DNA from: Ciceribacter lividus
Lineage (GTDB): Bacteria; Pseudomonadota; Alphaproteobacteria; Rhizobiales; Rhizobiaceae
NCBI RefSeq assembly: GCF_003337715.1
Contig: NZ_QPIX01000009.1
Span: 1-64,000, forward strand
Direction of reading: 5' to 3'
Length of the DNA stretch: 64,000 bases
Shown here one piece after another: positions 4,336 to 48,764 of this stretch. How positions within the stretch are numbered: position 1 is the first letter of the stretch; each line of letters begins with the position of its first letter. A program made the position numbers and the translations under genes. A model generated the notes under the pieces. That model saw only the letters and a list, made by a program, of their open reading frames with translations, did no database searches and was not told the DNA's origin.

Positions 4336-4350
4336 TTAAACACCGGTTAA
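4336..4350 (-). promoter_or_regulatory. CtrA-like box upstream of the chemoreceptor gene
   Basis: TTAA at 4336-4339 and TTAA at 4347-4350 are separated by exactly 7 bases, matching TTAA-N7-TTAA. The site is about 120 bp upstream of the start at 4213. CtrA control of motility and chemotaxis genes is established in alphaproteobacteria; binding here is inference. Confidence 0.45.
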
Positions 4351-36041: not shown

Positions 36042-36165
36042 GATAAGTTCGATCGGTTGTTCCGGTCATGACCAGACCAGTTTGCATCCATCCCATCGCG
36101 GTTCGGCCGCCAACCATCGTTCTTCCGAGAAAAAGTGCGATCCACGGCAACCGATGGAGTTTTTA

Positions 36166-36301
36166 CGATCCTGGGCGCCTACAAAAGTAGGTGGGCGCCG
36201 TGTGTCCAAGCCCACGGGCCTGGCCAGGGACAGCTCCCTCTGGATCGAGTATGGCCCCAGGGATTGTGGTTTCCTGTCGTGAGGCGCAGACCGCGATCCC
36301 T
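36166..36301 (-). ncRNA. ssrS: 6S RNA (SsrS)
   Basis: On the minus strand just downstream of zapA the DNA can fold into the 6S pattern. The 5' end (GATC...CTG...CGCCT from about 36299) can pair with the 3' end (AGGCG..CAG-GATC ending about 36168). A central unpaired region lies between, and the terminal arm is GGGGCC...AGGGA-GCTG-TCCCT...GGCC. A TTATAT element at 36304-36309 is placed as a -10. 6S RNA binds and sequesters the housekeeping RNA polymerase. The position after zapA is the usual one in proteobacteria. Ends are approximate. Confidence 0.7.
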
Positions 36302-47682: not shown

Positions 47683-47880
47683 ATGAGCATGAGCGACGAC
47701 GAACGCCCGAAGAAGAAGACGGTGCACGAGATCGGTTCCGATCTCTCGATGCTTTCCGCCGACGAACTGACCGCGCGCATCGGCCTCCTCGAAGAGGAGA
47801 TCGCCCGTCTCGATGCCGAGCGGCAGCGCAAGCAGGCCGGAAAGCTCGCTGCAGAAAGTCTGTTCCGCCCGAAAGTATAG
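47683..47880 (+). CDS. DUF1192-family small protein
   Basis: This 65-residue acidic helical protein (MSMSDDERPKKKTVHEIGSD, then LSADELTARIGLLEEEIARL) belongs to the DUF1192 family, which is common in rhizobia. The sequence ends in SLFRPKV. It is translated immediately after the MFS gene. Function is unknown. Confidence 0.85.
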   Translation: MSMSDDERPKKKTVHEIGSDLSMLSADELTARIGLLEEEIARLDAERQRKQAGKLAAESLFRPKV

Positions 47881-47940
47881 AGACCGGCTGCCCGACGTAT
47901 CTCCATCTGTCGCAAGGAACAACACTTCTGAGGCAAGCGG

Positions 47941-47956
47941 TTAACCATTCATTAAC
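47941..47956. promoter_or_regulatory. CtrA-like box upstream of a putative small RNA
   Basis: TTAA (47941-47944), seven bases, TTAAC (47952-47956) matches the full CtrA consensus TTAA-N7-TTAAC. It precedes the small-RNA candidate and, further on, the RcdA-like gene. Confidence 0.55.
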
Positions 47957-47979
47957 GCTTTTTCGTTAGTGTAATTGTC

Positions 47980-48078
47980 ATCCAGAGCTTCTGGATTCAG
48001 GCAGTTTCTCCTCATGGCGAATAGGTCTGATTTTCTCCCTGTTTTACCTTGAGAGCCGCTTTCGCGGCTCTTTTTTTG
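47980..48078 (+). ncRNA. Putative small RNA ending in a Rho-independent terminator
   Basis: The 368-bp gap 47881-48248 has no protein gene. It contains a small hairpin (CCAGA-GCT-TCTGG, about 47982-47994) and pyrimidine-rich unpaired segments (TTTCTCCTC and TTTTCTCCC) complementary to ribosome-binding sites. A strong terminator follows: AGAGCCGC (48052-48059), loop, GCGGCTCT (48064-48071), then seven T. The upstream MFS-DUF1192 unit could also use this terminator, so the RNA is a candidate. The start is not fixed and no known family is assigned. Confidence 0.45.
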
Positions 48079-48112
48079 ACGTTTTGATGGGTGCCCGGCA
48101 AAACTGTGGGAA

Positions 48113-48127
48113 TTAACCTTTCCTTAA
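48113..48127. promoter_or_regulatory. CtrA-like box upstream of the RcdA-like gene
   Basis: TTAA (48113-48116), seven bases, TTAA (48124-48127) is a second exact TTAA-N7-TTAA, 121 bp before the RcdA-like start and 35 bp after the preceding terminator, in promoter position. Confidence 0.55.
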
Positions 48128-48248
48128 GATTTGCCTTGCGCGTTTAAGGTATTGATAGCATCGTGACTCCATAAGAGCCGGAAAGCATCCTTCGGGGATG
48201 AAACAAGACGCGGCCGCGAGAGTTTTGCGTAAGACAGGGGTAATGACG

Positions 48249-48764
48249 ATGTCGGAAGTCGGCGTGAATACGATCAGCTTTGCGGGTCGCGCTGCGACCT
48301 CGAACCAGTTCAAGACGATCTATTCGGAAGGAATGGGGCTGGTGGAAGAGACCGCCGCCTATCTCGACGGCCCCGGCCGCTCCGCCGCCAAGGTCCTGCC
48401 GCGCATGGCCTCCGTGCTCTACGCAGCCGAATCGATGCGGCTGACCACCCGGCTGATGCAGATGGCCTCGTGGCTGCTTCTGCAGCGCGCCGTCAACAAC
48501 GGCGAGATGAGCCGCGACCAGGTGATGTCAGAGAAGAGCAAGGTCCGCCTTGACGGTTTCAACGTCGACAAGGCGGCTCCCGGCTGGAACGATCTGCCGG
48601 AAGCCTTCCGCGATCTCGTCGAGCGCTCGCTGCGCCTGCAGAACCGCATCGCACTGCTCGACCGCGAGATCTATCGCCCGGCGGAAGCGGCGGTCGTTCC
48701 GGACAACGAAAACAGCGTCAAGGCCCAGCTCGACCTGCTGCGGACCGCCTTCAGCGGCAACTGA
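48249..48764 (+). CDS. rcdA: DUF1465 family protein, RcdA-like adaptor of CtrA degradation
   Basis: This 171-residue helical protein belongs to DUF1465, the family of Caulobacter RcdA, which helps deliver the cell-cycle regulator CtrA to ClpXP. ATG 48249 was preferred over 48243 because AGGGG then sits 8 bp upstream. The conserved core is SEGMGLVEETAAYLDGPGRS, then MRLTTRLMQMASWLLLQRAV and FRDLVERSLRLQNRIALLDR. A CtrA-like box lies upstream, which suggests a feedback loop. The family call is by sequence memory. Confidence 0.78.
   Translation: MSEVGVNTISFAGRAATSNQFKTIYSEGMGLVEETAAYLDGPGRSAAKVLPRMASVLYAAESMRLTTRLMQMASWLLLQRAVNNGEMSRDQVMSEKSKVRLDGFNVDKAAPGWNDLPEAFRDLVERSLRLQNRIALLDREIYRPAEAAVVPDNENSVKAQLDLLRTAFSGN

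Follow-up and report, generated by a model that had tools for sequence, protein, structure and literature searches.

Organization of the Locus

The window, a 64,000-nucleotide stretch of Ciceribacter lividus DNA, contained a gap between a DUF1192 gene and the gene downstream of it, and the AT content of this gap was higher than that of the flanking genes (Table 1). The downstream gene, described as RcdA-like in the first-pass annotation, scored 212.1 bits against the NCBIfam equivalog NF051867 (cut-off 170), which identified it as rcdA. The start codon that fitted the relatives was at 48249 (or 48243), placing box 2 136 (or 130) nt 5′ of it. Among the matches listed, the closest named relatives by RcdA were the unclassified Rhizobiales isolate AFS003181, Rhizobium sp. 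RU36D and Ciceribacter. The genome also encoded CtrA (NF045991, 424 bits; cut-off 350).

The two exact TTAA-N7-TTAA sites reported earlier in the gap were confirmed and are termed box 1 and box 2. The 64-kb window had four such sites in all, and 100 dinucleotide-shuffled versions averaged 0.01. The other two were located at 1726–1740 and 4336–4350, and the first of these was surrounded by additional TTAAC half-sites. A simple scan of positions 47800–48300 for sigma-70-type promoters found none.

Table 1. Features in and around the gap between the DUF1192 gene and rcdA.
Feature	Position	Strand	Evidence or remark
6S RNA	36135–36295	−	RF00013, 73.2 bits; 12 kb from the sRNA, opposite strand
DUF1192 gene, 5′ neighbour of the gap	47683–47880	+	Pfam PF06698, 78.4 bits
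Box 1, TTAACCATTCATTAA, CtrA-type site of the predicted sRNA promoter	47941–47955	+	Exact match; 5′ base at about −39
Putative −10 of the sRNA, TAGTGT (relatives often TATTAC-like)	47967–47972	+	Suggested by the conserved A at −12
Predicted sRNA, ~98 nt, BjrC1505/SmelC671-like	47980–48077	+	Rfam RF02356, 36.7 bits; fold z −4.07; covariation
sRNA hairpin 1, AUCCAG/CUGGAU	47980–47996	+	Fold, covariation
sRNA hairpin 2, UCAGGC/GUCUGA, UCUCC in loop	47997–48030	+	Fold, pattern search in relatives
sRNA single-stranded core, UUUUCUCCCUGUUUUACCUU, anti-Shine-Dalgarno type	48031–48050	+	Core conservation
sRNA intrinsic terminator	48051–48077	+	Terminator scan, fold, covariation
Box 2, TTAACCTTTCCTTAA, upstream of rcdA	48113–48127	+	Exact match
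rcdA leader segment just before the start codon, GTAAGACAGGGG	48229–48240	+	Complementary to sRNA core over 12 nt, two pairs G-U; putative function
rcdA (DUF1465), protease adaptor RcdA	48249–48764	+	NF051867, 212.1 bits; PF07323, 199.2 bits; alternative starts 48243, 48198

Structure and Conservation of the Predicted sRNA

The candidate RNA of about 100 nt that had been proposed between the two boxes was supported as a predicted sRNA gene by its fold, by covariation and by a sub-threshold Rfam match. The predicted RNA at 47979–48077 folded at −36.5 kcal/mol (z = −4.07), and only one of 200 shuffled sequences folded as low. A single terminator-like site was detected at 48051–48072 and was followed by a T run, in agreement with the strong terminator noted before. 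The UCUCCUC and UCUCCC segments were both present: the loop of hairpin 2, itself partly paired, contained the former, and the latter was in the single-stranded stretch.

The close relatives, or Rhizobiaceae, referred to here were the best 80 of 546 loci, mostly from Rhizobium, Agrobacterium, Allorhizobium and Ciceribacter. Of 81 sequences, 80 contained CTCCCTGTTTTACC with no more than two differences, and the remaining one was incomplete. In a broader alignment, which took in 80 of the 92 sequences prepared, CUCCCUGU was invariant, the rows having mostly been chosen by a relaxed core pattern. Two-sided changes were observed at 16 of the 19 pairs in this alignment; the shuffle mean was 6.3 and none of 500 shuffles was as high, a control weakened by the kinship of the sequences. 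Paired cells made up 93.8% for the true structure and 36–51% for slid structures. The covariation counts of hairpin 2 were lowered because the Rhizobiaceae hairpin 2 was out of register in this alignment. Among the close relatives, hairpin 2 consisted of UCAGAC (32 sequences) or UCAGGC (20 sequences) with GUCUGA, so that the strict pattern fitted 52 of 81; 28 of the remaining 29 deviated from it somewhere, and one was incomplete.

Relationship to Known RNA Families

The sRNA matched RF02356 (BjrC1505) over the full model with 36.7 bits (E = 3.8e-5), below the gathering score of 50 bits, and it possessed the structure, the CUCCCUGU core and the terminator of that family. In its own genus, 7 of 36 genomes (own included) matched RF02356 at E ≤ 0.001 and none at 50 bits, while the named relatives plainly carried the sRNA despite these weak scores. 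Five genomes of another genus in the same family scored 67–74 bits. The window sRNA is therefore related to RF02356 via intermediates, yet it is no member by the rule of Rfam. BjrC1505 resembled it in its place before rcdA in the order and in the layout of hairpin, hairpin, CUCCCUGU and terminator, but differed in hairpin 2 and in the core (UUUUCUCCC for GACGCCUCCC).

In Sinorhizobium meliloti, SmelC671 (sm84) contains a long single-stranded domain with CUCCCUGU between variable hairpins, the last of which is the terminator; its relatives, including ReC71 in R. etli, are spread over Rhizobiaceae, Phyllobacteriaceae, Brucellaceae, Bradyrhizobiaceae and Methylobacteriaceae with extensive microsynteny (PMC3927594). 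The window sRNA shared with SmelC671 and ReC71 the single-stranded CUCCCUGU, the 3′ terminator and the broad distribution in Rhizobiales. SmelC671 is a single-copy gene of 100 nt at 2986421–2986520 (+) linked to nodule zone II, and the 6S RNA at 2972090–2972252 (−) is 14 kb from it (PMC7143759), just as the 6S RNA of the window was on the strand opposite to the sRNA at a distance of 12 kb. SmelC671 is probably the orthologue of the window sRNA, as judged by motif, length and 6S neighborhood, the two being compared by description rather than by sequence.

What distinguished the window sRNA was its predicted association with CtrA and its linkage to rcdA, a connection which is missing from the published descriptions of SmelC671 as far as these were available. 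Neither CtrA nor rcdA was found as a word in the accessible text of PMC3927594, and the promoter-motif field of SmelC671 is empty in the table of PMC7143759, as it is for several other sRNAs there. More broadly, a link between the BjrC1505/SmelC671 RNA family and CtrA, rcdA or the cell cycle was not encountered in the article texts searched, exclusive of supplements. The sRNA belongs to a known family, and the CtrA-type promoter is the newly recognized part.

Membership in three other families was rejected. The sRNA scored 25.1 bits against aR8/suhB (RF00519; gathering score 41), whose core 10-mer UUUCCUCCCU was absent from the window, UUUUCUCCCU being found instead. SorY (RF02651) was rejected at 16.4 bits against 111, and STnc130 also on the basis of its Rfam score.

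Box 1 and the Predicted sRNA Promoter

Box 1 agreed exactly with the TTAA-N7-TTAA form of a full CtrA site, and its 5′ base was 39 nt from hairpin 1, where the start of transcription is predicted. Full CtrA sites of Caulobacter have their 5′ base near −35, and one at −39 was interpreted as activating (PMC4287350).

The best site within 50 nt before the RNA was scored in 79 close-relative loci, exclusive of one with an incomplete upstream region. It matched at 8/8 in 49 loci, at 7/8 in 29 and at 6/8 in one, and shuffled controls gave 0.9% at 8/8 and 11.3% at 7/8. Order-wide, the count took in 54 of the 55 core-bearing loci, the other being incomplete, and yielded 23 at 8/8, 29 at 7/8 and two at 6/8 (controls: 0.9% at 8/8 and 11.4% at 7/8, or ~12% at 7–8/8). 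The box-bearing sequences are related by descent and so do not count as independent, and best-site scoring may choose a non-homologous place, for example at L113, L121 and L093. The 49 exact sites of the close relatives had 32 distinct spacers, which indicated that the half-sites were kept while the spacer drifted.

Measured from its 5′ base, the box stood 38–40 nt before hairpin 1 in 69 of 78 close-relative loci and in 35 of 51 loci order-wide; at these, position −12 relative to the hairpin was an A in 97% of the 69 and 77% of the 35. The RF02356 consensus itself opens with UUuACggccuAUUaa, that is, TTTA-N7-TTAA, and the first ~45 positions of the model seem, by their sequence, to be promoter DNA (CtrA-type box plus −10) rather than transcript. 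Other regulators reading TTAA-rich sites may act at box 1.

Linkage to rcdA and Distribution

Among 219 genomes of the order, RF02356 matches were detected in 186 (158 over the cut-off) and RcdA in 194. Sixty genera were each represented by one genome, and in 55 of them the sRNA core preceded rcdA; the genera were drawn from the listed best-scoring RcdA matches and were thus RcdA-bearing by choice. Of the five genera in which the core pattern was not found upstream of rcdA, two had an RF02356 match inside the examined stretch after all and a third had one ~0.3 kb beyond it; the fourth genome had a match whose place was not listed, and the fifth was listed without a match. The linkage between the sRNA and rcdA is old.

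The RF02356 search retrieved 30 loci, including that of the window, and rcdA was within the locus in 24. The other six had no rcdA within ~3 kb, although it may be out of view at three of them because their contigs were only 3.5–13 kb long. All six had a box at 7–8/8, 77–88 nt before the core. Two of the six were copies with a changed core in one and the same rcdA-less genome. Of the 20 genomes listed as lacking an RcdA match, seven had a match to RF02356. The sRNA, box included, occurred at a distance from rcdA and in genomes that lack this gene, which indicated that the sRNA is an independent gene.

A class-level search (192 genomes) yielded 21 further genomes with an RF02356 match beyond the order, at least one of them false: this match was a tRNA beside a terminator. 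A box at 7–8/8 was present in 17 of the 23 class-level loci, counted without a shuffle control in a 70-nt stretch, which was wider than that of the order-wide test. Of the other loci, four had no core by pattern, one was near a contig end, and one was misplaced by the pattern. Outside the order, several loci (L202, L203, L205, L223 and others) had RF02356-like RNAs with a GACGCCTCCCTGTT core and TTAA-N7-TTAA upstream. Genome G256 had two RF02356-like copies. Within the order, genome G043, rated 100% complete in ~310 contigs, had RcdA but neither an RF02356 match nor a response regulator above the CtrA cut-off; it is possible that CtrA and the sRNA were lost jointly in this single case.

Box 2 and the Possible Control of rcdA

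Box 2 was present at 8/8 in all 79 close-relative loci, 168–181 nt from box 1 in 73 of them. Unlike box 1, it had only nine kinds of spacer in the 79 loci. The spacer being nearly fixed, the whole block appears to be conserved, perhaps for more than CtrA. In the close relatives, conservation extended beyond box 2 to the block TGTGGGaATTAACCyTTyyTTAAgAaacgnCTTGCGcaTTT (48105–48145), which a second regulator may bind. Order-wide, a site at 7–8/8 was found between the terminator and rcdA in 10 of 54 loci, compared with ~4% in shuffles; box 2 is present in some lineages of the order and is not general. The expected conservation of both boxes thus held throughout the order for box 1 (7–8/8 in 52 of 54 loci) and among the close relatives for box 2.

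CtrA motifs before rcdA were predicted earlier in S. meliloti (PMC3616915) and in agrobacteria, where all three lineages had several rcdA start sites (PMC10469942). In contrast to the arrangement proposed here, these motifs were assigned to rcdA, and the sRNA was not mentioned in the available texts. In Caulobacter, CtrA directly activates rcdA (PMC4433202, PMC4287350). In S. meliloti, the rcdA promoter region was bound by CtrA in ChIP, and rcdA expression was unchanged on CtrA depletion; the accessible text neither specified the occupied box nor mentioned the sRNA (PMC4433202). A CtrA signal without an effect on rcdA might arise because CtrA serves the sRNA promoter (box 1). In Hyphomonas, rcdA was not regulated by CtrA, according to the available part of the report (PMC7200025).

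Candidate Targets of the sRNA Core

A comparison limited to the leaders of rcdA, DUF1192, MFS and L31 showed the lowest mean duplex energy with the core for rcdA in the close relatives (−15.0 in 79 loci, compared with −11.3 in 78, −7.7 in 75 and −11.2 in 71, respectively); a window-wide ranking was dropped since a spurious longer ORF displaced rcdA in it. Runs of at least nine pairs occurred in 31 of 79 rcdA leaders, 3 of 78 for DUF1192, 8 of 75 for MFS and 3 of 71 for L31. For 32 non-redundant rcdA leaders, the observed mean of −15.2 was reached by none of 400 shuffled cores, nor by any of 400 with CTCCC kept; the leaders of close relatives are related by descent. Foreign cores paired about equally with the rcdA leaders of the close relatives (BjrC1505 −15.6, SorY −14.2, own −15.2). 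It is therefore the shared CUCCCUGUU that is matched, and the Shine-Dalgarno sequence may account for part of this match.

The wobble pattern derived from the rcdA site matched the window's genome 16 times, and its reversed control 10 times. One of the 16 was the sRNA gene itself, 12 were inside long open frames, and two had no downstream start; only the rcdA site preceded a gene start outside a long open frame. Pairing with the rcdA leader was poor in some clades (Ciceribacter and part of Rhizobium), and order-wide the core and the rcdA leader paired without excess (mean z −0.46; 2 of 54 below −2). Target prediction for the pyrimidine-rich core thus pointed to a complementary rcdA leader in the close relatives, and the order-wide comparison did not extend it. 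By sequence, rcdA mRNA was the best single candidate target seen in the close relatives, and we regard an action of the sRNA on it as rather unlikely. The ctrA leader was rejected as a direct target, its best duplex in the own genome (−13.6 kcal/mol) having nothing distinctive.

Proposed Regulation and Alternative Explanations

We consider it quite probable that the gap contains a CtrA-driven sRNA gene of the BjrC1505/SmelC671 kind. The observations behind this proposal are the sequence and its structure, their conservation, a promoter geometry that is predicted, the synteny and a ctrA gene in the genome; activation by CtrA is likely. Late in the cell cycle, CtrA in its phosphorylated form would occupy box 1 (about −39 to −25) and switch on transcription from about 47980, and the RNA would end at the terminator (48077). 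The exposed CUCCCUGU core, probably together with the loop of hairpin 2, would then pair with ribosome-binding sites, so that translation of the targets would fall. If in close relatives the core also pairs with the rcdA leader, active CtrA would lower the synthesis of its own proteolysis adaptor and so spare itself; the sign of such a loop would be opposite to that of CtrA driving its own degradation. We further speculated that the whole represents an ancient alphaproteobacterial module, in which an anti-Shine-Dalgarno sRNA transcribed under CtrA shuts off a group of mRNAs while CtrA is high, rcdA being one of them in Rhizobiaceae, and CtrA proteolysis is delayed until the sRNA decays; this wider proposal seems unlikely to hold as a whole.

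The chances are about even that the sRNA is instead a general anti-Shine-Dalgarno regulator comparable to cuckoo, SorY and aR8, whose targets belong to metabolism or stress; CtrA would provide timing only, and rcdA would be a passive neighbor. This explanation agrees with the preferred one as regards CtrA and competes with it on the targets. The core resembles that of SorY (CCUCCCUGUUGGACUU) and, loosely, that of aR8/suhB in the Rfam alignments; in Caulobacter, a broad range of genes is repressed by SisA-D, whose 10-mer is similar (PMC12559287), pairing with rcdA was absent order-wide, and the sRNA occurred without rcdA. The linkage to rcdA in 55 of the 60 genera sampled and the CtrA-type site in promoter position argue against it. 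The circuit originally suggested, in which CtrA activates rcdA through box 2 as negative feedback on itself and the sRNA is a side product, is weakened by the S. meliloti and Hyphomonas data, by the scarcity of box 2 order-wide and by its nearly fixed spacer. It remains in keeping with the invariance of box 2 in close relatives, the ChIP signal in S. meliloti and the direct activation in Caulobacter, and we hold it to be doubtful.

Two further explanations would dispense with the sRNA or with CtrA. The segment could belong to the rcdA leader, or it could attenuate read-through from MFS-DUF1192, since both neighbors are on the same strand and the rcdA leader could also pair with the core in cis on a read-through transcript. 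The terminator, however, stands before rcdA, the RNA has its own predicted promoter, copies exist at a distance from rcdA as well as in genomes without it, and the likely S. meliloti orthologue is listed as a 100-nt sRNA (PMC7143759), so that this is improbable. That the boxes are chance AT-rich matches would be in line with the AT-rich gap, but the excess of sites in the window and a conservation above the shuffled controls already contradict it, and we give it hardly any credence.

Comparison with Other Regulatory RNAs

CtrA-linked non-coding RNAs have been described in Caulobacter, in which six non-coding RNAs are among the promoters with a CtrA motif (PMC4287350). With the locus described here, a widely conserved sRNA gains CtrA as a candidate input and rcdA as a candidate output. 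CcnA of Caulobacter is likewise a non-coding RNA with a CtrA box and is tied to CtrA control, the likeness being one of description and not of sequence; it differs in starting near the chromosome origin (position 182) and in acting on ctrA and gcrA, and its authors reported no clear homologue in S. meliloti. SisA-D and aR8/suhB (RF00519) resemble the window sRNA in having a single-stranded anti-Shine-Dalgarno core before the terminator, but they are linked to an FGase gene (PMC12559287) and their 10-mer UUUCCUCCCU has no exact match in the sRNA. SorY (RF02651) of Rhodobacter has CUCCCUGUU in common with the window sRNA and differs in its singlet-oxygen role, as taken from the family name.
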